From Pseudoroseomonas ludipueritiae (GTDB lineage: Bacteria > Pseudomonadota > Alphaproteobacteria > Acetobacterales > Acetobacteraceae), in NCBI RefSeq assembly GCF_014490445.1, contig NZ_JACTUZ010000025.1:1-40087 (forward strand): DNA of 40,087 bases. Reading direction: 5' to 3'. This document shows, piece by piece, positions 3,582 to 17,831 of the stretch. The notes under the pieces are model-generated. The model was not told the DNA's origin. It was given only the letters and a program-made list of their open reading frames with translations, and did no database searches. Position numbers and translations under genes: made by a program. Every line of letters starts with the position of its first letter. Within the stretch, counting starts at the first letter, position 1.

Positions 3582-3592
3582 GACCGTGCTCC

Positions 3593-4408
3593 TCAGGGCA
3601 TCGCGTAGCCACCGCTCGCGCCGACATGCTGGCCGGTGACGAAGGCCGCGCGGTCGGAGGCGAGGAAGGTGACAATCCCGCTGACATCCTCCGGGCGGGA
3701 GAGGCGGCCGAGGCCCTTGGCGGAAGGATAGGCGTTCAGCATCTTCGCCAGGCGCTCGTTGTTCTCCGGCGTGGCGTCGGCACTTGTCGCCTGCCCCGGC
3801 GCGATCCCCTCATGCGAGACGGCGCCGAGGACGACAACATTGGCGGTGACGCGGTCCCGCCCGTGCTCCTTCGCCAGCGCCTTGGTCAGGCCGATGATGG
3901 CGGCCTTGGCGCCGGAATAAGCGGCCAGCCGCGCCTCTCCTACGCGCCCGGCCTCGGAGGCGATGGAGATGATGCGGCCCCATTTCTGGCCAACCATGTC
4001 GGGCAGCACGGCACGGCAGCAGTACATGGTGCCGTAGACGTTCAGCTCCACGGTCTGGTGCATCTCGCGGTCGGGCGTCTCGATAAAGGTAGGCGGCATG
4101 CCGCCCTTGGCGCGGCGCTCCGGCGTGACGCCGGCGTTGTTCACCAGGATGGTAATGGGGCCGAGAGCATCGCGCCCCTTTGCTACCAGCGCGTTCACGG
4201 AATCGGCCTTGGTGATATCGCCGGGGGAGGCCACCGCGTCGCCGCCCGCGTCGCGGATCTCCTGCGCCACGGCCTCGGCGCGCTCAGGGAAGAGGTCGTT
4301 GACGACCACTTTCACCCCCTCCGCCGCAAGCTCCTTGCAGATGGCCCGGCCGACGCCCTGGCCACCGCCGGTGACGAGCGCGACCTTGCCCTTGAGGTTC
4401 AGTTCCAT
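3593..4408 (-). CDS. SDR-family NAD(P)-dependent oxidoreductase
   Basis: A 271-residue classical short-chain dehydrogenase/reductase. The Rossmann glycine motif TGGGQGVG is at residues 13-20, NNAG at 90-93, the catalytic serine region IISIAS at 146-151, and Tyr164-x-x-x-Lys168 in YSGAK. The C-terminal VTGQHVGASGGYAMP matches the usual FabG-like end. An acidic residue after beta-2 (ND at 37-38) suggests NAD rather than NADP, which is inference. In this operon it would oxidise a 3-hydroxyacyl-CoA made by the adjacent enoyl-CoA hydratase. It is about 180 bp from no promoter-like gap and reads as a mid-operon gene. Confidence 0.92.
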   Translation of the reverse strand: MELNLKGKVALVTGGGQGVGRAICKELAAEGVKVVVNDLFPERAEAVAQEIRDAGGDAVASPGDITKADSVNALVAKGRDALGPITILVNNAGVTPERRAKGGMPPTFIETPDREMHQTVELNVYGTMYCCRAVLPDMVGQKWGRIISIASEAGRVGEARLAAYSGAKAAIIGLTKALAKEHGRDRVTANVVVLGAVSHEGIAPGQATSADATPENNERLAKMLNAYPSAKGLGRLSRPEDVSGIVTFLASDRAAFVTGQHVGASGGYAMP

Positions 4409-4417
4409 GATGTCCCC

Positions 4418-5218
4418 TCAGCGCCCGACATAAACGGGCTTGCGTTTCTCGACGAAGGCGCGGAATCCCTCGCGCCGGTCCTCGCTGTCGGTCAGCATGC
4501 CGGCGGCATAGCGCTCGAACTCGAAGCCTGCATCGATCCCGCCTCCCAGCCCCGCATTCACCGCGCGCTTGGCGAAGGCGACGGCAAGCGGTGGCATTTC
4601 CGCGATCTTGCGCGCCGTCTCCATGGCGGCGCTGAGCACGTCGCTCGCCACCACCTTGCTCACCAGCCCGATGGAAAGCGCCTTCTCCGCCGTCATGTGC
4701 TCGGCAGTGAACAGCAGTTCCTTCGCCATGCTGGCGCCCACTGCGCGCGGCAGGGTCTGCGTGCCACCGGCGCCGGGGATGGCGCCCAGCCGCACCTCTG
4801 GCAGGCCCATTTTCGCGTGGGCGACGGCGTATCGGATGTCGGCGGTCAGGGCCAATTCCAGTCCGCCGCCCAGCGCCACGCCGTTGATCGCGGCGATCAG
4901 CGGGCGCTCGAACTCCATCACGCCTCGGATGAGTTGGTGCGTGGCCTTCTGCGCCATGAAGTATTCCGGGCCGGTGCGGCGCAGCTCCGCCCGCTCCTTG
5001 ATGTCGGCGCCGGCGCAGAAGGCGCGATCGCCCGCGCCGGTGAGGATGGCGCAGCGCAGCCCTGCATCCTCCTTCGCCAGCCGGAAGAAGGCAGTTGCAA
5101 GATCCTCCTTCATCGTGCCGCCGATGGAGTTCATCCGGTCCGGCCGGTTGAGGGTGATCACGGCCACGCCATCCGCTGATTCGTAGATCAGCGTTTCCAG
5201 TTCCTCGCGCATCCGCAT
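4418..5218 (-). CDS. Enoyl-CoA hydratase/isomerase (crotonase family)
   Basis: A 266-residue crotonase-fold enzyme. The oxyanion-hole segments FCAGADIKE (67-75) and GVALGGGLELAL (113-124) are present, with both catalytic glutamates: Glu121 in GGGLE and Glu141 in PEVRLG, followed by PGAGGTQ. This is the standard hydratase pattern, so hydration of a trans-2-enoyl-CoA is the expected reaction. The ATG at 5218 was chosen because it falls just after the thiolase-like stop (5224) and begins the family-like sequence; a second ATG at 5212 is also possible. The frame is open much further upstream, but that extension has no family resemblance and overlaps the thiolase gene. Confidence 0.92.
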   Translation of the reverse strand: MRMREELETLIYESADGVAVITLNRPDRMNSIGGTMKEDLATAFFRLAKEDAGLRCAILTGAGDRAFCAGADIKERAELRRTGPEYFMAQKATHQLIRGVMEFERPLIAAINGVALGGGLELALTADIRYAVAHAKMGLPEVRLGAIPGAGGTQTLPRAVGASMAKELLFTAEHMTAEKALSIGLVSKVVASDVLSAAMETARKIAEMPPLAVAFAKRAVNAGLGGGIDAGFEFERYAAGMLTDSEDRREGFRAFVEKRKPVYVGR

Positions 5219-5223
5219 CTCCC

Positions 5224-6372
5224 TCAGTCCCGCTGCAGAACGTGGCCGACGGCCACGGAGCCCAGCCCGATCATATGCGCCAGCGCCGTGCGCGCGCCGG
5301 GGTGCTGCCGCCCTTCCGCCTCGCCACGGAGCTGCCGGACGATCTCCGCGATCTGTCCAGCGCCGGTCGGCCCTATGGGATGCCCCATGCCGAGCAGGCC
5401 GCCCGAGGGATTCACCGCACAGCCCCCGCCGCCGATGTCCCACTTGCCCTCGCGCAGCTGCGCCGCGCCCTCGCCGAGGGGGCACAGGCCCAACGCCTCG
5501 GCATAGACGATCTCCTCGATCGTAAAGGCATCGTGCAGTTCGATGATGTCGATCTCCTCCATGCCCAGCCCTGCCGCGGCCAAGGCGGAGAGGCCCGAGC
5601 GCTGCACCATCTCCACGAGGCTCCAGCCCTCGTCGGCCACGGCGTGCTCGGATGAGGAGACGGAGGAGAGCACGCGGATGGCACGCCCGCGGTCCAGCCC
5701 GTGCTTCCGGATTGCCTCCTCGCTCGCCACGATCACCGCCGCCGCGCCCTCGCCGCGCGGGGTGCATTGCAAGGACGTGAGGTCGCCCGCCACAGGGTTG
5801 CTGTTCAGCACCTGCTCCAGCGTGCGCGGCTTGCGGAACTGGGCGTAGGGGTTGCGCGCGGCGTTTCCGTGATTCTTCACGGCCACGCGCGCCAGGTCCT
5901 CCCGCGTCAGGCCGTACTTGTCGCGCCAGGCGCGGGCCATCAGGGCGAACTTCACGGCCGGGATCTCGGCGGCGGGCGTCAGGCGGGGGATGCCATCCTT
6001 ATGCGCTGCACGCTGGCCGCTGCCGAACTTGTCCACGCCGAGCGCCAGCGCGATCTCATGCTGGCCGCTGGCGACCATCAGGCAGGCCATGCGGAAGGCG
6101 GTGGAGCCGGAGGCGGAGGCGTTCTCCACCTGCATCACCTCCAGCCCCGTGGAGCCGATGTGGCGCAGCATCACGCGCCCTGCCGCCATGCCGATGGCGC
6201 CCGTGCCGATGGCGGCGAAGGTCACGTCCGGCCATTGCAGCCCGGCATCCGCCAGCGCCTGCCGCAGCGCGGTCAGGCCGAGGGCGAGGTAGGGGGTTTC
6301 CGTCGGAAACTGGTAGGGGTGCATCCCGATGCCGACGGCGCGCACGGGGCGCATGGAGGCGAGCCCGCTCAT
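5224..6372 (-). CDS. Thiolase-superfamily protein (SCPx/Ltp-like) lacking the active-site cysteine
   Basis: A 382-residue thiolase-fold protein of the lipid-transfer/SCPx branch. Where catalytic thiolases have the nucleophilic Cys in a VENACASGS-like motif, this protein reads VENASASGS, placing Ser at position 86. The C-terminal half keeps HDAF (280-283), NPSGG (321-325) and GMGHPIG (328-334) with His331. The second catalytic Cys expected near residues 365-375 is also absent. Its ATG overlaps the stop of the OB-fold gene (ATGA), and thiolase-like proteins paired with DUF35 OB-fold proteins are known to form complexes. Ordinary thiolysis is therefore doubtful. A retro-aldol role like that of Ltp2 in steroid side-chain degradation is a reasonable alternative, which is inference. 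Confidence 0.88.
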   Translation of the reverse strand: MSGLASMRPVRAVGIGMHPYQFPTETPYLALGLTALRQALADAGLQWPDVTFAAIGTGAIGMAAGRVMLRHIGSTGLEVMQVENASASGSTAFRMACLMVASGQHEIALALGVDKFGSGQRAAHKDGIPRLTPAAEIPAVKFALMARAWRDKYGLTREDLARVAVKNHGNAARNPYAQFRKPRTLEQVLNSNPVAGDLTSLQCTPRGEGAAAVIVASEEAIRKHGLDRGRAIRVLSSVSSSEHAVADEGWSLVEMVQRSGLSALAAAGLGMEEIDIIELHDAFTIEEIVYAEALGLCPLGEGAAQLREGKWDIGGGGCAVNPSGGLLGMGHPIGPTGAGQIAEIVRQLRGEAEGRQHPGARTALAHMIGLGSVAVGHVLQRD

Positions 6373-6764
6373 GACGCCACCCGGAAGCGGCAGGCGAGCA
6401 CAGGCCCGCCCTCCCGCTCCTCCGGCACCAGGACCGCCTGCACCCTCGTGCCTGGCGCGGGCTCCTCGGTGCCTTCGAGGACGCCGTCCAGCACGACGCC
6501 CTCCTCCAGCCGCAGCCGGGCGACGAGCAGCGGCACTTTCATGCCGGGGGAGAGCGGCTGGTGGATGGTGACGCAGATGATTACCTCCCCCCGCCCGCTC
6601 AGCTCCACGGGTTCCGCCATCTCGGCCGGCGTGCCGCTCCCGCCGATGCCGTGAGGCGTGCGCGGGAAGGCGAGAGTGCCCGTGGCGGGATCGCGCAGCG
6701 CCAGCAGCACGGCGCCGTCTCCTGCGCCCGATGGGGCGTAGAGGGTGGGGTCGCGAAGATCCAA
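6369..6764 (-). CDS. DUF35-type OB-fold protein, partner of the thiolase-like protein
   Basis: A protein of about 131 residues. The C-terminal two thirds, from GRGEVIICVTIHQP through VPLLVARLRLEEGVVLDGVLEG to VPEEREGGPVLACRFRV, match the OB-fold of acyl-CoA-associated DUF35 proteins. The usual N-terminal zinc ribbon with two CxxC motifs is not visible. No ATG fits, and a TTG at 6764, five bases after the preceding Bug stop, is the best start. DUF35 proteins bind acyl-CoA and complex with thiolase-fold partners, and the overlapping thiolase-like gene fits that. The start choice is uncertain, and a neighbouring alternative cannot be excluded. Confidence 0.78.
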   Translation of the reverse strand: MDLRDPTLYAPSGAGDGAVLLALRDPATGTLAFPRTPHGIGGSGTPAEMAEPVELSGRGEVIICVTIHQPLSPGMKVPLLVARLRLEEGVVLDGVLEGTEEPAPGTRVQAVLVPEEREGGPVLACRFRVAS

Positions 6765-6769
6765 TGCAC

Positions 6770-7741
6770 CTACTCCAGTCGGATGCCGGCGCGGCGGATC
6801 ACCTCCGCCGCGCGCTGCCGCTCTGCGGCGAGATGGGCGGCGAAGTCCTCCGGCCCGGCCCAGTAGGCCTGGCTGCCCAGGTCCTTCATCCGCGCGGTGA
6901 AGACCGGCCCCTGCACCGCGCCCCGCAGCGTGCCGGACAGGCGCGCGACGACCGGGGCGGGCAGGCGGGCAGGGCCGACGAGGCCGAGCCAGGTGGTGAT
7001 CGCCACGCCCGGCACGATGTCCTTCAGCAGCGGGACCGCCGGCATCTCCTGGAAGGGCTCGGCGCCGGTCTGGGCCAGTGCGCGCAGCACGCCGTTGCGG
7101 ATGTGCGGGGTGGTGGTGGAGACGCTGTCGATCATGAAGTCCACGCCACCCGCGATCAGGTCGGTGATGGCGGGGCCGCTGCCGCGGTAGGGGACGTGGA
7201 TGATGTCCAGCCCACCATAGGCCTTCAGCATCTCTCCCGCGATGTGCATGGAGCTGCCGACGCCCGCCGAGGCGTAGTTCATCTTTCCAGGCCTGGCACG
7301 GGCCGCGTCGATCAACGCGCGGGCGTCTCGGTAGGGGGAATTCGCGGGCACCACGAGAACGAGCGGGCTGCTGGTGGTCTGCCCGATTGCGGTCACGTCC
7401 CGCGCAGCGTCGAAGCTGAACTTCGGGTCCAGCAGCGGGTTCACGATGAGCTGTCCGGGGCTGGCGAGCATCAGTGTATACCCGTCCGGCTCCGCGTGAG
7501 TGAGCAGGTCGGTTGCCACGTTGCCGCCGCCGCCGGAGCGGTTCTCCACCACTACGGGCTGGCCGAGCGCCTCGCCCAGAAGGGGCTGCAGCAGGCGGGC
7601 CGCGATATCGGTGGCGCCCCCTGGCGAGAAGCCGACCAGCAGCTTGATCGGGCGCGCCGGGAAGCCCTGAGCGTGCAGCGGGCGTGGGGCGAAGGGTGCC
7701 AGCGCCGCGGCGGCGAGGAGGTGGCGTCGGGAGGCCTTCAT
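6770..7741 (-). CDS. Bug-family (TctC-like) periplasmic substrate-binding protein
   Basis: A 323-residue tripartite tricarboxylate transporter receptor-type protein. The N-terminus MKASRRHLLAAAALAPFA ends in LHAQ and looks like a signal peptide with a twin arginine. The mature protein starts with the hallmark FPARPIKLLVGFSPGGATDIAAR, followed by GQPVVVENRSGGGGN and later THVPYRGSGPAIT-like family blocks (here IIHVPYRGSGPAITDLIAGG). It would bind a carboxylate in the periplasm. No TctA/TctB genes accompany it, which is common for Bug genes. Its ATG overlaps the stop of the upstream Bug gene (ATGA), so two binding proteins lead this operon. Confidence 0.92.
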   Translation of the reverse strand: MKASRRHLLAAAALAPFAPRPLHAQGFPARPIKLLVGFSPGGATDIAARLLQPLLGEALGQPVVVENRSGGGGNVATDLLTHAEPDGYTLMLASPGQLIVNPLLDPKFSFDAARDVTAIGQTTSSPLVLVVPANSPYRDARALIDAARARPGKMNYASAGVGSSMHIAGEMLKAYGGLDIIHVPYRGSGPAITDLIAGGVDFMIDSVSTTTPHIRNGVLRALAQTGAEPFQEMPAVPLLKDIVPGVAITTWLGLVGPARLPAPVVARLSGTLRGAVQGPVFTARMKDLGSQAYWAGPEDFAAHLAAERQRAAEVIRRAGIRLE

Positions 7742-8697
7742 TGCGGGCGGATCCCGGCCAACTCCACGCCGCGCGCGGCGCGGGTGCGCTCCTCGGCGAA
7801 GAAGGTCTTGAAGGCGTCAGGCCCGAGATAGGCCGGGCCGTTGCCCACGACGCGTAACCGCGCCGCCGTCTCCGGCTCCTCCAGTGTCTCGCGCGTGGCA
7901 TCGTCCAGGCGGTGCAGCAGCGGGTCCGGTAGGTTGGCGGGCGCGACGATCGCGGTCCAGCTTTGCACCACCACCTCCGGGTAGCGGTCGGAAAGCCGGG
8001 GGAGGTCGGGATAGGCGAGGTCCGGCAGCAAGCCCCCGTTCGCGATGACCCGGACCACGCCGGATTGCAACTGCGGCAGAAGTGGCCCGCGGCTGTCGAA
8101 AAGGAAGTCGATCTCCCCGGCGGCCAGGGCGTTGATGGCGGCCGCGCTGCCGCGATAAGGCACGTGGGTCGCCTTGGCGCCGATGGCGTTGAGGAAGACC
8201 TCCGCCCCGATATGCATGGCGAAGCCGATGCCGGGGGAACCGTAGTTCGAGGCGTCGCCCTTTCGCCTCAGGTGGGCAATCAGCCCGTCCACATCCGTCA
8301 CACCGGTCGAAGCAGGCACGGCGAGGAGGAAGCCGCCGGCGGTGGTGCGGGAGACCAGCCGGATGTCGCGCACGGGATCGAAGGGCAGGTCGCGGTACAG
8401 GTAGGGGTTCAGCGTCATGATGCCGCCCGAGATGGCCATGATCGTGTGGCCGTCCGGGGCGGCACGCGCCAGGAACTCGGCGGCGATGTTGCCGCCCGCG
8501 CCGGGACGGTTGTCCACCACCACGGGCTGCCCGAGCCGCCGTGCCAGGCCCGGCTGCACGATGCGCGCGATCAGGTCGGTGATGCTGCCCGGCGAGGAGC
8601 CGCAGACCATGCGGAGCGGCTGCGTCTGCGCGCCGGCCGGCCACGCTGCCAGGAACGGGGGCGCGAGAGCCAGGGCCGCGCGCCGCGGGATGGACAT
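7738..8697 (-). CDS. Bug-family (TctC-like) periplasmic substrate-binding protein, first gene of operon
   Basis: About 319 residues from an ATG at 8697, preceded by a GGAGGA ribosome-binding site. An earlier in-frame ATG at 8751 would add 18 residues without signal-peptide character. The N-terminus MSIPRRAALALAPPFLAAWPA is a clear signal peptide. The family blocks LRMVCGSSPGSITDLIAR, GQPVVVDNRPGAGGNIAAEF and THVPYRGSAAAINALAAGEIDF follow. The SPGSITD segment replaces the commoner PGGATD, suggesting a different ligand preference from its neighbour. It is the promoter-proximal gene of the 8-gene minus-strand operon, and the paired operator at 8755-8790 sits 58 bp upstream. Confidence 0.92.
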   Translation of the reverse strand: MSIPRRAALALAPPFLAAWPAGAQTQPLRMVCGSSPGSITDLIARIVQPGLARRLGQPVVVDNRPGAGGNIAAEFLARAAPDGHTIMAISGGIMTLNPYLYRDLPFDPVRDIRLVSRTTAGGFLLAVPASTGVTDVDGLIAHLRRKGDASNYGSPGIGFAMHIGAEVFLNAIGAKATHVPYRGSAAAINALAAGEIDFLFDSRGPLLPQLQSGVVRVIANGGLLPDLAYPDLPRLSDRYPEVVVQSWTAIVAPANLPDPLLHRLDDATRETLEEPETAARLRVVGNGPAYLGPDAFKTFFAEERTRAARGVELAGIRPQ

Positions 8698-8754
8698 GGA
8701 CGATCCTCCGTCAATCCGCCGCGTTGGCCGCCGCTGGACCTCGAAACTCAATCA

Positions 8755-8790
8755 GTGACTTCATGGTATTAAAAGTGACTTCAGAGTCAA
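8755..8790. promoter_or_regulatory. Paired operator A with overlapping minus-strand promoter
   Basis: Two 16-bp sites lie exactly 20 bp apart: GTGACTTCATGGTATT (8755-8770) and GTGACTTCAGAGTCAA (8775-8790). The second is a good palindrome with half-sites GTGACT and AGTCAA. On the minus strand, TTGACT (8785-8790) and TACCAT (8763-8768), 16 bp apart, form a sigma70-like promoter for the catabolic operon, so the operator covers the -35 box. The region is divergent, with the TetR gene beginning at 8870. The same arrangement recurs at 14398-14445. Repression is inferred from the overlap. Confidence 0.75.
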
Positions 8791-8869
8791 CTCAAATGAC
8801 GTGGTTGAAGGTCCGGCTTGCGCTGGCCGCCCAGTGCGGCCATCACGTGTCACGAAGCGGGATGGGGAA

Positions 8870-9520
8870 ATGACTCGGACGACAAGCGTGAAGAGGCCAG
8901 CGCGCTGGGCGGATGCCGTCCCGCCGCGTGAGGCGCAGTTCGAGACGAAGCGCCGCGCCCTGGTGCGCGAGGCCGCTCGCGCCTTCGGCCGCCGGGGCTT
9001 CCACAACACCTCGCTGGAGGAGATCGCGGAAGCGCTGGGCGTCACCAAGCCCGCGCTCTACCGCTACGTCCGCACCAAGCACGAAATCCTCTACGAGGCG
9101 AAGACCATCGCCTTCGACGCGGGCGCGGAAGCGCGGAAAGCCGCCTTCGCCGCCAGCGAGGACCCGCTGGAGCGCCTCCGGCTCTACATCGTGCACTACA
9201 TCAACCTGGTGACGAGCGAGCTCGGTTCCTATGCTGTGTTGGCGGAGCCGGTGACCTCCCTGCCGCCTGAATACGCCGATCCCATCCGCGGGCGCATGCG
9301 CGAGGCGGACCGGGCGCTGCGTGACATGGTGCAGGCGGCGATGGATGCCGGTTCGATCGCACCAGGCGACCCGAAGCTGATGGTCGCCTTCTTCATGGGC
9401 GCGATCAACCACATCGCCCGCTGGTACACGCCCGACGGGCCACTGACCGGCTTGCAGATCGGGGAGATCTTCGCCGGCTACGTGCTGAACGGGCTGCGCG
9501 GGTCGGCCGGGGCGGGCTAA
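8870..9520 (+). CDS. TetR/AcrR-family transcriptional regulator
   Basis: A 216-residue regulator from the ATG at 8870, preceded by a GGGG-rich ribosome-binding site. The longer frame from 8801 would overlap the operator region and lacks family resemblance. The N-terminal helix-turn-helix is at about residues 45-70, including the TSLEEIAEALGVTKPALYRYV segment with the typical ALYRYV recognition helix. The C-terminal ligand-binding part contains SELGSYAVLAEP and GAINHIARWYTPDGP, as in regulators of acyl-CoA catabolism. It is divergent from the Bug-led operon and shares the paired operator with it, so autoregulation and control of the operon are likely. The ligand, perhaps an acyl-CoA, is inference. 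Confidence 0.9.
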   Translation: MTRTTSVKRPARWADAVPPREAQFETKRRALVREAARAFGRRGFHNTSLEEIAEALGVTKPALYRYVRTKHEILYEAKTIAFDAGAEARKAAFAASEDPLERLRLYIVHYINLVTSELGSYAVLAEPVTSLPPEYADPIRGRMREADRALRDMVQAAMDAGSIAPGDPKLMVAFFMGAINHIARWYTPDGPLTGLQIGEIFAGYVLNGLRGSAGAG

Positions 9521-9532
9521 GCGACGCCCGCC

Positions 9533-10264
9533 TCGGAGCGGCTGCGCGACGGAGCGCCGCACGATTTTCGCCCAGCGCGGCAACTCACCCTGGATGAAGA
9601 CGGCGAAGCACTCGTGGCTCAGCCCCGCCAGGAAGCAGTTGCTGTCGTTCTCGGCGTGCCTGAAAAGCTCGGCTTCCTCCATGACGGTGCTGCAGGCCGT
9701 GGCAAGCCTCTCCACGACCTCCGGCGGAGCACCGGCAGGCAGGACACCCCCGACCAGGAAGCGAGGCCGGCACCGGGCATCCCGGCCTGTGACGACGAGC
9801 GGACGCATCCGGCCGCCCTCGATGTAGCCGTGGGTCGCGACCGCGTAGTTGAACATGACGCCGGTGTTGCCGGCGATCAGGCCCGTGATGGCCGGGCCGC
9901 TGCCGGGATGGGGACATGGGTCATCTCAATACTCGCCACCGTCTGGAACAGGACGGTGGCGAGGTGTGTGCCGGTCCGACGCCCGCCGTACCGTAGAGAA
10001 GCGTGTAGCCATCGGGCATGGCGCGGGCTCCCACCTTGGTGCCGGCTGTTCCGCCCGCGCCGGGCCGATTGTCGATGGTCACCGCCCGCCCCAGCCCGGC
10101 CTCGAGCCTGCGTGCGAAAAGGCGGGACTGGATGTCGGTGATTTCCGCGGAGGTGAAGGGCACGATTCAGGTGAGGGGGCGGTTCGGATAACCCCCCTGG
10201 GCCGGGCGCGGCGCGCACCTGGGGCTGTCAGCCCGAAGCCCGTGGCTCTGCGGGTCGTATGCAT
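9533..10264 (-). pseudogene. Decayed Bug-family binding-protein gene
   Basis: Comparison with the Bug genes at 11477 and 12483 shows the damage. The start (ATG at 10264) and signal-peptide region survive. The conserved LTWIVPF block has its Trp codon changed to TGA at about 10167. It continues as AEITDIQSRLFARR, VTIDNRPGAGG and MPDGYTLLYGT. About 75 codons are then deleted, a frameshift leads to HLATVLFQTVASIEMTHVP, and another frame continues with MFNYAVATHGYIEGGRMRPL. A further short deletion follows before RWAKIVRRSVAQPL. The stop TGA of the paralogue (QPL-stop) is CGA here (9533-9535). Nonsense, deletions, frameshifts and stop loss together make it clearly dead. Confidence 0.85.
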
Positions 10265-10288
10265 GGCGTCACTCCCTGAACCTCTTTT

Positions 10289-10313
10289 GTGACTATACCG
10301 ACCCTAAGGTCAA
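10289..10313. promoter_or_regulatory. Degenerate operator B upstream of the dead Bug gene
   Basis: An intact half-site GTGACT (10289-10294) starts 25 bp upstream of the pseudogene ATG, similar to the 29 bp seen for operator D. An overlapping match, CCGACCCTAAGGTCAA (10298-10313), reads TTGACC-TTAG-GGTCGG on the other strand. A second site 20 bp away (10309-10324) is only weakly recognisable. The pattern fits an operator pair that has decayed along with its gene, but it could be chance. Confidence 0.45.
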
Positions 10314-10385
10314 AGATCTGATATCAAAACGGAACGTCCTTTCGGGGGCCTGATATAGTGATCATCGCGGGAGGCAGATCAGGAC

Positions 10386-10421
10386 TTGACTTCAAAGTAA
10401 CATTATTGACTATCGGGTCGA
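10386..10421. promoter_or_regulatory. Paired operator C upstream of Bug gene 10471
   Basis: Two 16-bp sites lie 20 bp apart: TTGACTTCAAAGTAAC (10386-10401) and TTGACTATCGGGTCGA (10406-10421). The left half TTGACT is identical in both. The right halves AGTAAC and GGTCGA are degenerate inverted copies. The pair ends 49 bp before the Bug ATG. TTGACT at 10386 could serve as a -35 box, but no convincing -10 is seen at the right distance. Confidence 0.7.
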
Positions 10422-10470
10422 AAAGAAGGCGACGGCCCGCGAAGGTGCTGGCCGGCACGGAGGAACTGTC

Positions 10471-11457
10471 ATGATCCGAACCCGCCGGGGCTTGCTGGCC
10501 CTCGGGGCCGCGGCACCTTTCGCCGCACGGGCGCAGCCCGCGCCGCCGCCGCCGCCGGGCTACCCGTCCAAGCCTGTCCGGCTGCTGATCGGCTTCGCAC
10601 CCGGCGGCGCGACCGACATCGCGGCCCGGCTCGCGGCCCCGATCTTATCGGAGTTGCTGGGCCAGCAGGTCGTGCTCGAGAACCGCTCGGGTGCCGGCGG
10701 CAACGTGGCCACCGAGATGACGGCACGCGCCCCGGCGGATGGCTACACGCTGCTGATGCTCACCCCCGGCCAAGTCGTCACCAACCCCCTGATGATGCGC
10801 GTGCCCTACGACCCTGAGCGGGACATCACCGCCATCGCGCGGATGACGGCCGGGCAGCTGGTCATGGTGGTGCCGAAGGAATCCCCCTTCCGTGACGTGC
10901 GCGAGCTGCTGGAAGCCGCGCGGGCGCGGTCCCGCACCACCCCCTTGTCCTACGGCACACCGGGGCCGGGCACGTCCCAGCACATCGTCATGGAGATGCT
11001 GAAGAAGGAGGGCGGATTCGAAGCGACGCATGTGCCCTATCGCGGTAGCGGCCCGGCCATCGTGGACCTGATCGGCGGCAAGATCGACTTCATGATCGAC
11101 AGCGTCAGCCCCACCCTGCCGCATGTCCGCACCGGGTCGCTGCGCGCGGTCGCGGTGACGGGGGAGCGGCCGCACCCGGATTTCCCGGAAGCCGCCACGC
11201 TGAACAGCGTGGTGCCCGGCGTGGTCATGACCACCTGGGTTGGGCTGGGCGGCCCGCCGGACATGCCGCCAGCCATGGTGTCCTACCTGACGGATGTGGT
11301 CAGGCGCGCCGTGGACCACCCGGGCTTCTCAGAGCGCATCAAAGACCTCGGCGGCCAATCCGCCTGGCTGGGGCCGCGGGATTTCACCGCCGCGCTCTCA
11401 GCGGAGCGGACCAGCATCGGCGCGGTGATCCGAAGCGCCGACATCCGCATGGAGTGA
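10471..11457 (+). CDS. Bug-family (TctC-like) periplasmic substrate-binding protein
   Basis: A 328-residue binding protein with an AGGAACTGTC leader before the ATG. The signal peptide reads MIRTRRGLLALGAAAPFAARAQ and is followed by a proline-rich linker (PAPPPPPGYP) before the mature domain. The family blocks VRLLIGFAPGGATDIAARLA, GQQVVLENRSGAGGNVATE and THVPYRGSGPAIVDLIGGKIDF are intact, and the protein ends normally. It is most like the 6770-7741 gene in this window (PGGATDIAAR subtype). It is the only Bug gene here on the plus strand and stands alone, with operator pair C immediately upstream. Confidence 0.92.
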   Translation: MIRTRRGLLALGAAAPFAARAQPAPPPPPGYPSKPVRLLIGFAPGGATDIAARLAAPILSELLGQQVVLENRSGAGGNVATEMTARAPADGYTLLMLTPGQVVTNPLMMRVPYDPERDITAIARMTAGQLVMVVPKESPFRDVRELLEAARARSRTTPLSYGTPGPGTSQHIVMEMLKKEGGFEATHVPYRGSGPAIVDLIGGKIDFMIDSVSPTLPHVRTGSLRAVAVTGERPHPDFPEAATLNSVVPGVVMTTWVGLGGPPDMPPAMVSYLTDVVRRAVDHPGFSERIKDLGGQSAWLGPRDFTAALSAERTSIGAVIRSADIRME

Positions 11458-11476
11458 GGGCGGGACGCGCGGCCCC

Positions 11477-12472
11477 TCAGAGGGGCTGCGCGCCGGAGCG
11501 GCGGACGATCTCCCCCCAGCGCTCCATCTCGGCCGTAACGAAGCGGGCGAAGGCCTCGCCGTTCAGCTCCTCCATGGGGCGGCTGCCATTGCCCTCGCCG
11601 AAGGCGCGCATTTCCGGGTCGCGGATCACGGCCGCAGCGGCGTTCGAAAGGCGCTCCACCACGGACGCGGGCGCGCCCGCTGGCATGAACAGACCCGACC
11701 AAGTGGAGGACCAGGCGTCAGGCAGCCCGACCTCGGCCACCGTCGGCACGGCGGGCAGCGCGGGGATGCGCGCCCGCGCAGTGACGGCGAGCGGGCGCAT
11801 GCGGCCTTCGGCGATGGGATTCCGCGTGGTGGCCACGTAGTCGAACATCACGTCCACGTTGCCGGCCATAAGGTCGGTCAGCGCGGGCGCGGCGCCGGTG
11901 TAGGCGACATGCGTCATCTCGATCCCGGCGATGGATTCGAACAATACGGCGGTGAGGTGCGTGGAGGTGCCGACGCCGGCGTGGGCGAGATTGACCCGGC
12001 CAGGATTGGCGCGGGCGAAGCGGATGAACTCCTCCGCAGTGCGATAGGGGCGCAAAGGGTTGGCGACGAGCACGTTGGAAGACTCGAACAACCCCTGCAG
12101 CGGCGTGAAGCTGCGCACGGGGTGGTAGCCCAGTCGCCGATACAGGGCGGGGGCGCCGGACATGGCGGCATTGGTGCCGTAGAGGACCGTGTAGCCGTCC
12201 GGCGCGGCGCGCGCGGCGTACTCCGTGCCCAGCGTGCCGCCGGCACCGGGCCGGTTCTCGATCACCACGGGCTGGCCAAGCTGCTGGCCGAGCTTGCGTG
12301 AGGCGAGGCGAGAGGTGGAATCCGTCACCCCGGCCGCGTTGAAGGGAACGATCCAGGTGACGGCGCGGGAGGGATAGGGCGCGGTTTCCTGCGCCGCCGC
12401 GCCGCCAGGCCGGGCGCCCTCCCCCGTGAGGACGAGGCTGCTGAGGGCAAGGGCGCGACGGCTGATCGGCAT
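11477..12472 (-). CDS. Bug-family (TctC-like) periplasmic substrate-binding protein
   Basis: A 331-residue binding protein. The signal peptide starts MPISRRALALSSLVLTGE. The blocks VTWIVPFNAAGVTDSTSRLASRKLG, GQPVVIENRPGAGGTLGTEYAARA and THVAYTGAAPALTDLMAGNVDVMFDYV are present. It belongs to the same subtype as the neighbour at 12483 and the pseudogene at 9533: all three share a WIVPF start and an IVRRSxAQP end, indicating local duplication. The ATG is 10 bp from the stop of the upstream Bug gene, so they are co-transcribed, presumably from the operator-D promoter. It converges on the plus-strand Bug gene with 19 bp between the stops. Confidence 0.92.
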   Translation of the reverse strand: MPISRRALALSSLVLTGEGARPGGAAAQETAPYPSRAVTWIVPFNAAGVTDSTSRLASRKLGQQLGQPVVIENRPGAGGTLGTEYAARAAPDGYTVLYGTNAAMSGAPALYRRLGYHPVRSFTPLQGLFESSNVLVANPLRPYRTAEEFIRFARANPGRVNLAHAGVGTSTHLTAVLFESIAGIEMTHVAYTGAAPALTDLMAGNVDVMFDYVATTRNPIAEGRMRPLAVTARARIPALPAVPTVAEVGLPDAWSSTWSGLFMPAGAPASVVERLSNAAAAVIRDPEMRAFGEGNGSRPMEELNGEAFARFVTAEMERWGEIVRRSGAQPL

Positions 12473-12482
12473 GGCGGCCCCC

Positions 12483-13469
12483 TCAGCTCGGCTGCGCGCC
12501 GGAGCGGCGGACGATCTCCGCCCAGCGCGGAATCTCCGCCTCGATGAAACGGGCGAAGCTGTCGCGGTTCAGCTCCACCATGGGCCGGCTGCCGTTCGAT
12601 TCGGCGATGTGGCGGATTTCAGGGTCGCGGATCGTCACGGCGGCCTCGGCGGCGAGCTTCTCCACCGCCTCGGGCGGGGAGCCGGCGGGGAGGAGGATGC
12701 CGGACCAGGCGGCGGAGGCGGCGTCCGGCACGCCGATCTCCGTCACGGTGGGTACCTCCGGCAAGGCCGGGATCCTGTTTTTAGCCGTGACCAGCAGCGG
12801 GCGCAGGCGGTTGCCCTCGATATGGTCCCGCGTGGCGACGGCGTAGTCGAACATGATGTCCAGCGTGCCCGCGATCAGGTCCGTCAAGGCCGGGCCGCTG
12901 CCGGGATAGGGCACGTGCGTCATCTCGATGCCCGCCACGGTCTGGAAGAGCACGGCGGCCAGATGCGTGCCGGTGCCCACGCCGGAGCTGCCGAAGTTCA
13001 CCTTGCCTGGGTTGGCCTTGGCATAGGCGATCAGCTCCTGCGCCGTGCGGTAGGGGCGGGAGGGGTGCACCACCAGCACGTTCGGCGTCTCGAACATGGC
13101 TTGGATGGGGATGAAGCTGCGCAGGGGATCGTAGGGCAGGCGCCGGAACAGGGCAGGCGCTGTGGCGAGGGTGCCCTGGGTTCCATACATCATCGTGTAG
13201 CCATCGGGCGCTGCACGCGCGCCCATCTCGGTCCCCAGCGTGCCGCCGGCGCCGGGGCGATTGTCGATGATAACGGTCTGGCCGAGCTGCGCACCGATCT
13301 TGCGAGCGAAAAGACGGGAGTTGACGTCCGTGATCCCCGCCGGGGTGAAGGGCACGATCCAGGTGAGGGACCGGCTGGGATAGCCGCCCTGCGCCGCCTC
13401 GCCCCTGGTGCTTCCCATGGTACCGAGGGCCGTCATCCCCAAGCTGAGGACCCGTCTGGTAATCCGCAT
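12483..13469 (-). CDS. Bug-family (TctC-like) periplasmic substrate-binding protein
   Basis: A 328-residue binding protein from the ATG at 13469, which has a strong GGAGG five bases upstream. The alternative ATG at 13484 lies before this ribosome-binding site and is less likely. The signal peptide is MRITRRVLSLGMTALGTMG. The blocks LTWIVPFTPAGITDVNSRLFARKIGA, GQTVIIDNRPGAGGTLGTE and THVPYPGSGPALTDLIAGTLDIMFDYA follow. It is the closest intact relative of the pseudogene at 9533-10264, sharing SRLFARK and the IEMTHVP block. It is the first gene of a two-gene unit with 11477-12472, under operator pair D. Confidence 0.92.
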   Translation of the reverse strand: MRITRRVLSLGMTALGTMGSTRGEAAQGGYPSRSLTWIVPFTPAGITDVNSRLFARKIGAQLGQTVIIDNRPGAGGTLGTEMGARAAPDGYTMMYGTQGTLATAPALFRRLPYDPLRSFIPIQAMFETPNVLVVHPSRPYRTAQELIAYAKANPGKVNFGSSGVGTGTHLAAVLFQTVAGIEMTHVPYPGSGPALTDLIAGTLDIMFDYAVATRDHIEGNRLRPLLVTAKNRIPALPEVPTVTEIGVPDAASAAWSGILLPAGSPPEAVEKLAAEAAVTIRDPEIRHIAESNGSRPMVELNRDSFARFIEAEIPRWAEIVRRSGAQPS

Positions 13470-13497
13470 CCTTTCCTCCCGCATCCGGCTTTATGCC

Positions 13498-13533
13498 GTG
13501 ACCTCCGAGTCATCGGAGTGACCTTCAGGATAC
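13498..13533. promoter_or_regulatory. Paired operator D upstream of two-gene Bug unit
   Basis: Two 16-bp sites lie 20 bp apart: GTGACCTCCGAGTCAT (13498-13513) and GTGACCTTCAGGATAC (13518-13533). The first is a clear palindrome with half-sites GTGACC and AGTCAT. The pair begins 29 bp upstream of the Bug ATG (13469), so a protein bound there would overlap the core promoter or leader. No convincing -10 hexamer was found in the 29 bp. Confidence 0.7.
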
Positions 13534-13563
13534 CGAAGGGGGTGGAGGAATCAACGCGCGTCT

Positions 13564-14316
13564 TCAGCCCCTGGGCGGTTCAGGAGCAAAGAGAAGGGGG
13601 CGCACCTCCTCCAGCGCGGCGCGGTAACTCTCCCGGCTGGCCTCCAGCCGGGTGGTGGGGCCGGCGAGGGAGATGGCCAGGGGCTCGCCCCCGACCAGCC
13701 CGGCGATGGCGATGGCGGCCACCCCTTCTCCCGCCTCCCCGGCCACCCAGGCCCAGCCGCGCGCCCGCACCTCCTCCACCGCCACTTCCAGCTGGTCGGG
13801 GTCGGTGATGGCGGCGGGGCCGAGCTGGCGGAGCGGCCGGGCGCGGATGGCGCGGCGCATCTCCTCCACCGGCATCAGCGCGAGCAGCGCCTTGCCAAGC
13901 GCAGAGGCATGCATGGCCAAACGCTCGCCCGGGCGCAGCATGTAGCGCAGGGGGTGGCTGCCCTCCTGGATGGCGATGACCTGCACACGCGCGCCGTCCG
14001 GCCTGCCGCAGATGGCTGTCTCGCCGGTGCGCTCGCTCAGCGCCGCGATGGCGTCCGCGGCGAAGGCGGCGATCGGGTCCCGCTCCGCCGACTGGCGGGC
14101 CACGTCCAGCAGGCGGCGCGTGGGATAGAAGCGGCGCGAGCGGACGGTGCGGAGCAGGTATCCCGCTTCGTGCAGCGTGTGCAGCAGGTCCGAGGTGCTG
14201 CTCTCCGGCAGGCCGATGAGGCGGGCGATCTCGGCGTTGGAGAGGTCGCGCTGTTCACGGGCGAAGACCTCGAAGACGGCGAGGGTGCGCAAGGTCGCCG
14301 GGACGGTGGTCGGCAT
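13564..14316 (-). CDS. IclR-family transcriptional regulator
   Basis: A 250-residue regulator from the ATG at 14316, preceded by GGAG. The frame is open to 14445, but that extension runs through operator pair E and has no family likeness. The N-terminal winged helix-turn-helix is at about residues 8-65 (TLRTLAVFEVFA, LSNAEIARLIGLPESSTSDLLHTL). The C-terminal effector domain includes MHASALGKALLA and the GWAWVAGEAGEGVAAIAIAG block. IclR regulators of this type usually respond to aromatic or aliphatic acids and control adjacent operons. It is divergent from the acyl-CoA dehydrogenase gene with operator pair E between them, making it the second candidate for the protein that binds the paired sites. 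Confidence 0.9.
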   Translation of the reverse strand: MPTTVPATLRTLAVFEVFAREQRDLSNAEIARLIGLPESSTSDLLHTLHEAGYLLRTVRSRRFYPTRRLLDVARQSAERDPIAAFAADAIAALSERTGETAICGRPDGARVQVIAIQEGSHPLRYMLRPGERLAMHASALGKALLALMPVEEMRRAIRARPLRQLGPAAITDPDQLEVAVEEVRARGWAWVAGEAGEGVAAIAIAGLVGGEPLAISLAGPTTRLEASRESYRAALEEVRPLLFAPEPPRG

Positions 14317-14397
14317 GGGCGCTCCAGGAAGGGTCCAATGGGCCTGCCGTAGAGGAGCCGTTGCGGGCTTTCCAGAGCGGGATGGCACGAACCGGCA

Positions 14398-14445
14398 GTG
14401 ACCTTTGAGACATATTGTTGACTCAAAAGTCACTTTCTCTACCAT
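14398..14445. promoter_or_regulatory. Paired operator E with overlapping plus-strand promoter
   Basis: Two 16-bp sites lie 20 bp apart: GTGACCTTTGAGACAT (14398-14413) and TTGACTCAAAAGTCAC (14418-14433). The second is the best palindrome of the set (TTGACT, CAAA, AGTCAC). On the plus strand, TTGACT (14418-14423) is followed after 16 bp by TACCAT (14440-14445), the same hexamers and spacing as on the minus strand at operator A. This is the likely promoter of the acyl-CoA dehydrogenase unit, with its -35 box inside the operator. The sites lie between the IclR and dehydrogenase genes. Confidence 0.75.
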
Positions 14446-14574
14446 CCCTTCACCAGAGATGGACGCCAGGGTGGAGAACGCCCGGCAATGGGAAGGAAGC
14501 AGGCATGGCGCGTCTCACGACGGGGCATCACCGATCGCAGAACCCGGGTGCGGCGCGTCGGCCTGGAGGCCACC

Positions 14575-15723
14575 ATGGCCGTTGACCTCACCCCCGAGCA
14601 GGAGCTGCTGCGCGACAACGTGCGCCGCTTCATGGAGCGCCGCGTCGCGCCCGTGATCAACGAGCACGAGGCGTCAAAGACCTTCCCCTTCGAGATCCTG
14701 GGGGAGCTGGCCGAGTTCGGCTATCTCGGTGGCCGCCTGCCGGAGGCGGATGGCGGGTTCGGGCTGGACTACGTCACCTGGGGGATGCTGCTGGAGCAGA
14801 GCGGCTACTACTGGATGTCGCTTCGCACGCTCGTGAACATCACCAACGGCGCCATCAACCGGCTGCACGCCTATGGCACGCCGGAACAGCACGAGCGTTT
14901 CCTCAGGCCGCTGCTGGAGAATCGCCGGCGCGCCTGCTTCGGGCTGACCGAGCCGGATACCGGATCGAACGCCGCCGGCGTCCAGGCGCGCGCCGACCGC
15001 AGGGGTGACACCTACGTCCTCAACGGGCGGAAGATGTGGATCACCAACGGTGCCAGTGCCGACTTCGCCATCATCATCGCCCGCACCTTCAGCCCGGACT
15101 GCGACGGCGGCCTCTCCGCCTTCATCGTGGAGCGGGAGGCGGCGCACTACGACGTGCGGCCGCTGGACACGATGGTGCTGCGCTGCACTGGCACCGCGGA
15201 ACTCGGCTTCAACGATGTGGTAATCCCGCGGGAGAACCTGCTGGGCGAGGAGGGTGGGGCCTTCCGCAACGTCCTGAAGGGGCTGAACGCCGCGCGGGTG
15301 AACATCGCCATGGGAGCGGTCGGCGCGGCCCAGGCCGCGCTGGACCTCTCCGTGGAGTACGCGAAGACGCGCAAGCAATTCGGCAAGCCGATCGGGAGCT
15401 TCCAGCTGATCCAGAAGCACATCGTGGACATGACCATCCGCACGGAGGCCGCACGCGCCCTGGCCTACAACGCCGCCACTGCGCTGGACCGCGGGCGTGA
15501 CGCCCGCACGGAATGCTCCATCGCCAAGCTCTACGCCACGGAAGCCGCGCATGAGGTCGCGAACATGGCGCTGCAGGTACATGGCGGGATGGGCTACTCC
15601 ACCGAATACCCCATCGAGCGCATCTTCCGCGACACGCGCGGCGGCATGATCCCGGAAGGGACGACGGAGATCCAGACGCTCATCGCCGGGCGCGAGATCC
15701 TCGGGCTCTCGGCGCTGACATGA
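14575..15723 (+). CDS. Acyl-CoA dehydrogenase (FAD)
   Basis: A 382-residue acyl-CoA dehydrogenase from the ATG at 14575, with GGAGG just upstream. An earlier ATG at 14488 would add 29 residues without family resemblance. Signature segments are CFGLTEPDTGSNAAG (FAD and substrate contact), KMWITNGASADF, RKQFGKPIGSFQLIQ and MALQVHGGMGYSTEYPIERIFRD. The catalytic glutamate region near the C-terminus reads MIPEGTTEIQ, with Glu at about residue 361, as in short- and medium-chain members. It oxidises an acyl-CoA to the 2-enoyl-CoA, passing electrons to ETF. Its stop overlaps the start of the next gene (ATGA), giving a coupled activation and oxidation pair. Confidence 0.94.
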   Translation: MAVDLTPEQELLRDNVRRFMERRVAPVINEHEASKTFPFEILGELAEFGYLGGRLPEADGGFGLDYVTWGMLLEQSGYYWMSLRTLVNITNGAINRLHAYGTPEQHERFLRPLLENRRRACFGLTEPDTGSNAAGVQARADRRGDTYVLNGRKMWITNGASADFAIIIARTFSPDCDGGLSAFIVEREAAHYDVRPLDTMVLRCTGTAELGFNDVVIPRENLLGEEGGAFRNVLKGLNAARVNIAMGAVGAAQAALDLSVEYAKTRKQFGKPIGSFQLIQKHIVDMTIRTEAARALAYNAATALDRGRDARTECSIAKLYATEAAHEVANMALQVHGGMGYSTEYPIERIFRDTRGGMIPEGTTEIQTLIAGREILGLSALT

Positions 15724-17831
15724 GCGGCTTCTCCGACCTCGCCCCGCTCTTCGACCCGCGCTCCGTCGTGCTGGTCGGGGCCTCCGAGCGCGCCGCCAGC
15801 GTCGGCGGGCGAACGCTCGCCAACATCGTGGACCACTCGGATTTCCGCGGCACGCTGCACCTGGTGAACGCGACGCGGCCGGAGGTGCGCGGCCTGGCCT
15901 GCCACCGGCGGGTCGCGGACCTGCCCTCCGCCCCGGAGCTGGCCGTCATCGCCGTGCCGGCCGCCGGGGTGATGGAGGCGCTGCGCGAGTGCGCGGCGAT
16001 CGGCGTGAAGATCTGCGTGATCCTCACCTCCGGCTTCGGCGAGACCGGGGAAGAGGGTCGCGCGGTCGAGACGGAGATGAAGGCGCTGGCGCAGTCCACG
16101 GGGATGCGCCTCTACGGGCCGAACTGCCCAGGCGTGACGAACATCAACAAGCGGCTCGGCTTCACCTTCTCCCCCGCCTTCAAGGACGATCTACGCCCCG
16201 GCCCGATTGGCCTGGCTACCCAGGGCGGTGGCCTCGGGCGGAACCTGATGCAGGCGATGGAGCGCGGCGCGGGCTTTGCCCTGTGGTGTTCCACTGGCAA
16301 CGAGGTGGACCTGCAGGTCGCGGACTTCATCCACTACATGGCCGGCGCGCCGGATGTGCAGGTGATCGGCACCATCTTGGAGGGGATCAAGGACGGGCCG
16401 CGCTTCCTGGCGGCGGCGCGGGCGGCGGCGGAGGCCGGAAAGCCGGTCGTGGCCCTGAAGGTCGGCCGCTCGGAGTACGGGATGAAGGCGGCGGCGTCGC
16501 ACACCGCCTCGCTCACCGGCTCCGCCGAGGTGAACAGCGCCGCCTTCCGCCAGATGGGCATCATCGAGGTGGACGACGTGGACGAGCTGGTGGATGTCGC
16601 CTCCCTGCTCGCGCGTGGGCGGCCGCAGCGCGGCGCGCGGATCGCCGTGTTTGGTTCCTCGGGAGGGGCCTGTGCACTGGCGGCGGACATGGTGGGGCAG
16701 GCCGGCATCGTGCTGGCCGGGTTCGCGCCGGAAACCACCGCGACGCTGGCGGAAAAGCTTCCCTCCTTCGCCGCGCTCGGCAATCCCGTGGACACGACCA
16801 CCGTCACCCTGACCAACCCGTCCGTGATCGAGGAGACGCTGGCCGCGGTGGCGAATGACCCGGCCGTATCGCTGGTGATGCTGCCGATGCCGCTCGATTA
16901 CGGGCCCGTCTCGCTCACCGTGGCGGAGCGGATGGCGGCGGCGCAGCGGCTCTCGCCCGTGCCGCTCGTTCCGGTCTGGATGAGCGAGCGGACGGGCGCG
17001 GCCTACCGGCACTTCGCGGAAGCGGAGATGGTGCCGATCCGCAGCCTTCGCAACGCCGCCAAGGCCTTCCGCCGCTTCATCGACCGCGGCGAATGGGAGC
17101 CGGGTGCGATGCCGCGAGGCATGGGCGCCGGGCCGCCGGGACCCACCCGGACGCTGTCGGAGGCGGAGGGCAAGGCGATGCTGCGCTCGTCCGGCCTCGT
17201 GGTGCCGGAGGGAAGGATTGCCCGCTCGGACACCGAGGCGGTGGAGATCGCGGCAGAACTGGGCTTCCCGGTTGCGGTGAAGATCGCCAGCGCCGACATC
17301 CTGCATAAATCCGACATCGGTGGCGTGGTGCTCGGGCTGCGGACGGCCGAGGCGGTGCGCGCGGCCTTCGAGGCCGTCAGAGAAGCGGCGCGCAGGCACG
17401 AGCCGGCGGCCCGCATCGACGGCGCGCTGGTGGAGCGCATGGCGCCTTCCGGCGGGCAGGAGATCCTGCTCTCCGTCTCGCGTGACCCGGTGTTGGGCCA
17501 GGTGATGACCTGCGGCCTGGGCGGCATCCATGTGGAACTGCTGCGCGACGTGTCCCGCCGCCTTCTGCCCGTGGATGCTGCCGAGGCCGGGCGGATGCTG
17601 CGGGAGTTGCGCGGCTTCCCGCTGCTGCAGGGCCTGCGCGGCGCGGCGCCCTGCGACCTGGAGGCGCTCTGTGCGGCGATGGCGGCGGTTTCCGCCCTGG
17701 TGGAGGCGCGGCCAGAGGGGATCGAGGAGATCGAGATCAACCCGCTGCGCGTCGGCGCCGCGGGCGAAGGCGCCTGGGTGCTGGATACGGTGGTGACGCT
17801 GCGTGAGAAAGATGCAGGCCCATGCGGATGA
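15720..17831 (+). CDS. NDP-forming acyl-CoA synthetase (acetate-CoA ligase ADP-forming family)
   Basis: A 703-residue single-chain enzyme with the ACD domain order. A CoA-binding Rossmann domain starts at LFDPRSVVLVGASE (10-23). Succinyl-CoA-ligase-like domains follow, with the phosphohistidine segment ASHTASLTGS and His261. A C-terminal ATP-grasp domain spans about residues 475-700 (LGFPVAVKIASADILHKSDIGGV, ALVERMAPSGGQEILLSVSRDPVLG, EEIEINPLRV). It would make acyl-CoA from acid, CoA and ATP with ADP as product, or work in reverse. It is coupled to the acyl-CoA dehydrogenase by a 4-bp overlap. The window therefore carries both AMP- and ADP-forming activation systems. Confidence 0.92.
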   Translation: MSGFSDLAPLFDPRSVVLVGASERAASVGGRTLANIVDHSDFRGTLHLVNATRPEVRGLACHRRVADLPSAPELAVIAVPAAGVMEALRECAAIGVKICVILTSGFGETGEEGRAVETEMKALAQSTGMRLYGPNCPGVTNINKRLGFTFSPAFKDDLRPGPIGLATQGGGLGRNLMQAMERGAGFALWCSTGNEVDLQVADFIHYMAGAPDVQVIGTILEGIKDGPRFLAAARAAAEAGKPVVALKVGRSEYGMKAAASHTASLTGSAEVNSAAFRQMGIIEVDDVDELVDVASLLARGRPQRGARIAVFGSSGGACALAADMVGQAGIVLAGFAPETTATLAEKLPSFAALGNPVDTTTVTLTNPSVIEETLAAVANDPAVSLVMLPMPLDYGPVSLTVAERMAAAQRLSPVPLVPVWMSERTGAAYRHFAEAEMVPIRSLRNAAKAFRRFIDRGEWEPGAMPRGMGAGPPGPTRTLSEAEGKAMLRSSGLVVPEGRIARSDTEAVEIAAELGFPVAVKIASADILHKSDIGGVVLGLRTAEAVRAAFEAVREAARRHEPAARIDGALVERMAPSGGQEILLSVSRDPVLGQVMTCGLGGIHVELLRDVSRRLLPVDAAEAGRMLRELRGFPLLQGLRGAAPCDLEALCAAMAAVSALVEARPEGIEEIEINPLRVGAAGEGAWVLDTVVTLREKDAGPCG

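Follow-up and report, generated by a model that had tools for sequence, protein, structure and literature searches.

Tandem operator-like sites of a predicted TetR regulon in a transport and acyl-CoA gene cluster of Pseudoroseomonas ludipueritiae

The window analyzed here is a 40,087-nucleotide stretch of Pseudoroseomonas ludipueritiae DNA (contig NZ_JACTUZ010000025.1, positions 1 to 40,087). It carries a cluster of genes for Bug proteins—solute receptors of the TctC family—and for acyl-CoA metabolism, together with one TetR-family and one IclR-family regulator. Four upstream regions of this cluster, named A to D, feature 16-base-pair (bp) sites of the form KTGACY-N4-RGTCAM arranged in tandem at a pitch of 20 bp. 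These paired sites are very probably the operators of the local TetR-family protein (positions 8870–9520), as judged by their distribution among genomes and by related motifs. The most likely reading of the sequence is a conserved TetR regulon with tandem operators, which would keep the transport and acyl-CoA genes repressed as long as no pathway intermediate is available.

Paired sites, promoters and their conservation

The operators and the promoters associated with them are as follows.

8755–8790, no strand: operator A, two 16-bp sites (8755 and 8775) between the Bug1-led operon (minus strand) and the TetR gene (plus strand)
8763–8790, minus strand: sigma-70-like promoter of the Bug1-led operon, TTGACT (8785–8790), 16-bp spacer and TACCAT (8763–8768), inside operator A
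10386–10421, no strand: operator B, two 16-bp sites before Bug2
13498–13533, no strand: operator C, two 16-bp sites before the Bug4–Bug3 unit (minus strand)
13527–13554, minus strand: possible Bug4–Bug3 promoter, TTGATT (13549–13554), 16-bp spacer and TATCCT (13527–13532), read by eye from the alignment
14398–14453, no strand: operator D, three sites (14398, 14418 and a degenerate one at 14438–14453) between the IclR gene (minus strand) and the acyl-CoA dehydrogenase gene (plus strand)
14418–14445, plus strand: sigma-70-like promoter of the acyl-CoA dehydrogenase operon, TTGACT (14418–14423), 16-bp spacer and TACCAT (14440–14445), inside operator D

An earlier note on this DNA had placed eight KTGACY left halves at 8755/8775, 10386/10406, 13498/13518 and 14398/14418, and all eight match exactly. 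The start-to-start distance is 20 bp in each of the four pairs; the claim that this distance is invariable holds within the window but not beyond it, pair A of R. mucosa being spaced by 21 bp. The sites had been described as 16-bp palindromes with an inverted right half, which is accurate for the left halves only: the right halves are much weaker, with TGACY-N4-RGTCA present in three of the eight sites and between 2 and 5 symmetric base pairs out of 8 per 16-mer. Operator D had been taken for a pair. Its sites at 14398 and 14418 are confirmed, but the degenerate third site at 14438, which had been missed, makes it a triplet.

KTGACY-N14-KTGACY occurs four times in the window, always on the plus strand; 200 first-order Markov copies, read on both strands, contain it 0.04 times on average and once at most. 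The genome was scanned over 5.35 Mb in 394 contigs. The bare half-site pair TGACY-N15-TGACY is found 17 times (nine for the reversed pattern), four of these being the window pairs; the other 13 lie on other contigs and fall below the threshold of the full paired pattern, which was defined as KTGACY-N4-RGTCAM-N4-KTGACY-N4-RGTCAM with at most three mismatches and controlled by its reversal. Genome-wide, the full pattern matches at four places, which all belong to this cluster and match on both strands; the reversed control has no match in the 5.35-Mb genome. At the threshold used, the pattern is confined to this cluster, and its sites lie on promoters of transport and acyl-CoA genes. A count of identical 5-mers at fixed spacing returned GC-rich words only. 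A4 and C5 of KTGACY stand out as the strongest positions among 59 sites (118 half-sites) from the window and its relatives. Several right halves are poor, as repeats due to chance might be, but four pairs in the window against 0.04 expected, four genomic places against none for the control and the conservation of the sites in relatives reduce the probability of chance to practically nothing.

At A, TTGACT-N16-TACCAT is the only promoter-like match in 8600–9000 (shuffles: mean 0.0), and at D it is the only one in 13400–14550 (shuffles: mean 0.0, standard deviation 0.2). TTGACT is conserved at A in 7/7 aligned sequences and TACCAT in 6/7, with TACTAT in the genome G289; at D, TTGACT is kept in 7/7, and the second box reads TACCAT in 5/7 and TAGCAT in 2/7. 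In both operators, TTGACT serves as operator half and −35 box at once, with the inverted half falling in the spacer and the −10 box being covered by the next site—a double use of the left half that was absent from the earlier account of the site anatomy. Given this overlap with the −35 box of a sigma-70-like promoter, repression at A and D through promoter occlusion is likely. At C, the sites cover the −10 box of the possible promoter read by eye, TTGATT-N16-TATCCT, and the DNA downstream of this box; the consensus scan did not report this promoter. That the pairs mark four promoters, as had been proposed, is borne out at A and D by the scan and is possible at C from the reading by eye, with operator B lacking a promoter in the scan. 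No recognisable promoter was found for tetR or iclR themselves.

Eight carriers of the TetR gene were compared: the window, R. rosea (G019), R. populi, Pararoseomonas baculiformis (G317), Roseomonas sp. SXEYE001 (G231), G009, G289 and a plasmid of R. mucosa; the naming of G019, G231 and G317 was deduced from matching coordinates and identities. In the seven further genomes or records, TetR occurs together with the Bug1 operon or a wider cluster, and the gene order of R. mucosa is the same from the ligase to the two Bug genes. Operator A is present in all eight carriers. Operator B occurs in the five carriers with Bug2 and is worn in G289, where no Bug2 follows it; P. baculiformis and R. mucosa have no Bug2 at its place. 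Operator C is a pair in six carriers and a single palindrome in P. baculiformis, and operator D is found in 7/7 carriers having IclR, with the middle site kept in all seven and the outer two worn in some. Conservation is higher inside the operators than beside them: the majority share, averaged over the columns, is 0.88 at A, 0.78 at B, 0.89 at C and 0.81 at D, against 0.52–0.76 in the flanks, some of which are shorter than 36 columns. At the strict three-mismatch level, G019, G317 and G289 yield one match each. The comparison of the same promoters in relatives, proposed in advance, finds the paired sites recurring with TetR.

On the R. mucosa plasmid p1-AD2 (L107, NZ_CP025188.1), operator A occurs twice, at 9334–9370 and 13890–13926, before two Bug genes and each time with 21-bp spacing. 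In R. rosea (L067, 1–360), the DNA beside operator A is transposase-like by eye and the assembly breaks nearby; the operator is intact.

Probable assignment to the TetR-family regulator

Two regulators are encoded in the cluster.

8870–9520, plus strand: TetR-family regulator (TetR_N and TetR_C_24), ATG at 8870, longest open reading frame from GTG at 8801; proposed binder of A to D
13564–14316, minus strand: IclR-family regulator (HTH_IclR and IclR_C), divergent from the acyl-CoA dehydrogenase gene

The former matches TetR_N at 5.3e-13 and TetR_C_24 at 9.2e-25, both above the Pfam cut-offs. Which of the two binds the sites had been left open; the distribution of the pairs and the relatives of the motif favor TetR. 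In a sample of 299 genomes of the family, the full pattern is present in 6/6 genomes with a TetR ortholog and in 3/293 others, and the latter value lies within background because the reversed control matched nine genomes. Seven of the eight carriers encode both regulators, so that the exceptions decide between them. The genome G289 has TetR (84% identity), the Bug1 operon and operator A, whereas its best IclR match is 32% identical, i.e., no ortholog. Six genomes feature an IclR homolog (45–54%) but no TetR ortholog (best 26–34%), and none of the six contains the full pattern anywhere in the genome; the reversed control matched one of them. In two of these, both Verticiella, the IclR homolog (53–54%) stands among similar Bug, thiolase, hydratase, SDR, dehydrogenase, ligase and NMO genes, with no TetR ortholog (best 30–34%) and no paired site genome-wide. 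The four other genomes (45–51%) have no paired site either. One of the 11 loci gathered for comparison (L055, a 26-residue match) entered the site scan but no other count. The genera Verticiella, Cupriavidus, Variovorax and Lacisediminimonas are betaproteobacterial.

IclR regulators often bind paired sites as tetramers, and the IclR protein of the cluster could occupy the two palindromes of a pair in this manner; its gene, moreover, diverges from operator D, and its ortholog accompanies the pairs in most carriers. This assignment is nevertheless improbable and was rejected, the pairs not following the IclR gene in either direction: G289 keeps operator A without the ortholog, and the six genomes with an IclR homolog but no TetR ortholog lack the pairs. 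In addition, the two Verticiella genomes share a different conserved palindrome, TCRCGGTATTCCGTGA, upstream of iclR, although the recognition helices differ in part. Still less probable is an explanation by a regulator encoded elsewhere or by RNA polymerase alone acting on repeated −35 boxes. TTGACT at A, B and D is indeed a good −35 box, but −35 boxes explain neither the inverted RGTCAM halves nor operator C, and the boundary between carriers and non-carriers of the local TetR is sharp. In the two Verticiella loci (L049 and L054, approximately 9850–10000), the conserved TCRCGGTATTCCGTGA and TCACGAAATACCGGAGAA before iclR are candidate IclR operators.

Related sites also precede more distant TetR homologs. 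These comprise 29 loci of 30–42% identity, 16 from a class sample and 13 from a phylum sample. A single KTKACY-N4-RGTMAM site (at least 10/12, within approximately 420 bp upstream) is present in 21/29, compared with a mean of 5.3 and a maximum of 10 in 100 simulations. Pairs (at least 19/24) spaced by 19 bp occur at 7/29 loci (200 simulations: mean 0.035, maximum 1) and pairs spaced by 20 bp at 2/29 (mean 0.065, maximum 2); other spacings from 12 to 32 bp are found at 0 to 3 loci. The palindromes of the distant homologs are a lead, not proof. A wider generalization, that tandem palindromes at a fixed pitch of 19–21 bp—two dimers touching on one DNA face, with a half-site as −35 box—may be a trait of this whole TetR subfamily across Proteobacteria, is put forward tentatively and with more doubt than trust. 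At one locus (L095, 1409–1444), a 20-bp pair (21/24, relaxed motif) lies not upstream of the TetR match (38% identity) but beyond its 3′ end, at a distance of at most approximately 90 bp. This position corresponds to that of operator B.

Several observations weigh against the assignment to TetR. The full pattern is also present in the three family genomes without a TetR ortholog, and the separation from IclR rests on one TetR-only genome and on IclR homologs of approximately 50% identity, whose DNA specificity may have drifted. The consensus scan gives no promoter at operator B, though TTGACT is present there. The three-mismatch pattern overlooks some orthologous operators, many right halves being poor. 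Among the distant homologs, pairs are more often spaced by 19 than by 20 bp, and the two loci at 20 bp equal the maximum of the simulations; the relaxed motif was fixed once a first inspection had been made, and several of the partner sites are weak. Finally, the 29 loci are not independent: L118 and L120 belong to one genus, and others share a genome or family.

Proposed mechanism, number of dimers and target genes

In the proposed mechanism, one TetR dimer would read one KTGACY-N4-RGTCAM palindrome, and two dimers (up to three at D) could sit side by side approximately two helical turns apart. At A and D, the occupied sites would lie over the −35 box, the spacer and the −10 box, and at C probably over the −10 box and the start region. 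Bound TetR would block transcription of the Bug1-led operon, the other Bug receptors and the acyl-CoA dehydrogenase/ligase operon until a pathway intermediate, probably an acyl-CoA, releases it. Binding, the number of dimers, repression and the inducer are predictions from sequence.

Two dimers side by side at each pair are plausible, and the 20-bp pairs are consistent with the mode of QacR and DarR, in which two dimers occupy one operator. Only one palindrome of each pair might be the TetR operator, the second being conserved by its overlap with the −10 box or start site, with one dimer per promoter. In the second A site, one side coincides with the −10 box TACCAT, and P. baculiformis has a single palindrome at C and a worn first site at D, all of which would fit this arrangement. 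It is unlikely, however, as judged by the outer half RGTCAC of the second A site, which is kept beyond the −10 box in 7/7 sequences, and by the recurrence of spaced sites before the distant homologs at the two pitches counted above.

The genes that the TetR protein would control are listed below.

7738–8697, minus strand: Bug1 (TctC-family solute receptor), first gene of its operon; TctC 5.6e-56, ATG at 8697 after GGAGGA, longest open reading frame from TTG at 8751
1048–7741, minus strand: rest of the Bug1-led operon, with a second Bug (6770–7741), an OB-fold protein, a lipid-transfer-type thiolase, an enoyl-CoA hydratase, an SDR, an NMO/FabK-like protein and an AMP-forming acyl-CoA ligase
10471–11457, plus strand: Bug2 (TctC 1.9e-59), target of operator B
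11477–13484, minus strand: Bug4 (12483–13484, ATG probably at 13469) and Bug3 (11477–12472), both TctC, targets of operator C
14488–17831, plus strand: acyl-CoA dehydrogenase and ADP-forming-type acyl-CoA ligase, targets of operator D

It is plausible that these genes serve one shared pathway. The cluster consists of uncharacterised transport and acyl-CoA genes and is found in a few Roseomonas-type genomes and on the R. mucosa plasmid. Most Bug receptors have no assigned ligand; a likely regulator and four target promoters allow those of this cluster to be linked to a single pathway.

Six Bug genes lie within 7 kb: Bug1 to Bug4, the second gene directly behind Bug1 (6770–7741, minus strand), which is overlapped by a longer open reading frame (6369–7901), and a broken copy. 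The latter, a TctC-family gene at 9536–10253 (minus strand) between TetR and Bug2, is matched by intact Bug proteins in pieces and in more than one frame. A worn operator-like stretch precedes it at 10278–10313 with a score of 17/24, which taken alone is at chance level (approximately five such expected per window). A further, distant Bug relative is located at 27254–28141 (minus strand).

Comparison with known TetR systems

The regulon had been called undescribed. A local regulon with paired operators is supported, and no paper on it was found in the open-licence literature; the type of site, however, is known from PfmR and SbtR, which share its core. A resemblance to the RutR box was set aside, a literature search for it having found nothing.

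The relatives of the TetR protein in the PDB are 3dcf and 3vpr, the entry 3VPR, named as PfmR (PMC10636190), being the second-best match (7e-21). PfmR (TTHB023) of Thermus thermophilus selects CTGACCGATCGGTCAG and controls acyl-CoA genes (PMC7022988). This sequence has the core TGACY-N4-RGTCA; PfmR sites typically overlap core promoter elements, the PfmR operon and targets include acyl-CoA dehydrogenase, ligase, thiolase and reductase genes, and two promoters bear two sites each. PfmR differs by C/G instead of K/M at the outermost base and by a center preferring GRYC, and where a promoter bears two PfmR sites, these are shifted by 4 bp or lie 146 bp apart instead of forming a 20-bp tandem. Measured against PfmR, the window features the exact core in 3/8 sites and the left half in 8/8, promoter overlap at A and D, by eye at C and none at B, and targets that are genes of acyl-CoA metabolism. 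SbtR (TTHA0167), also of T. thermophilus, selects the 14-bp consensus TGACYRNNYRGTCA (PMC4948773), which has the same palindrome core.

BkaR of mycobacteria is an autoregulated TetR repressor whose operon is linked to branched-chain keto-acid metabolism (PMC3920632). Its 16-bp core GTTANTN4ANTAAC occurs twice in its own promoter region, but bases and regulon are different, and it is reported to bind the motif as a dimer. DarR, structurally closest to PfmR, has an ATACT-N4-AGTAT operator (PMC10636190) on which two dimers touch along one DNA face; in DarR, unlike in the window, the palindromes overlap on a 20-bp operator, and the ligand is a second messenger. MbdR of Azoarcus, with 3-methylbenzoyl-CoA as inducer (PMC4424350), resembles the predicted regulator as a TetR repressor of several promoters in one catabolic cluster with operators over promoter elements and differs in its operator, ATACN10GTAT. 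AtuR/RdmA and PA3973 are TetR regulators with two operator copies at spacings other than the 20 bp observed here.

The principle—a TetR switch by which a pathway stays silent in the absence of its substrate—is familiar. Operator type and mode are already known from these systems; what is added is the regulon and the 20-bp tandem arrangement, which makes the paired operator a direct test case for cooperative binding by a PfmR-like TetR protein.

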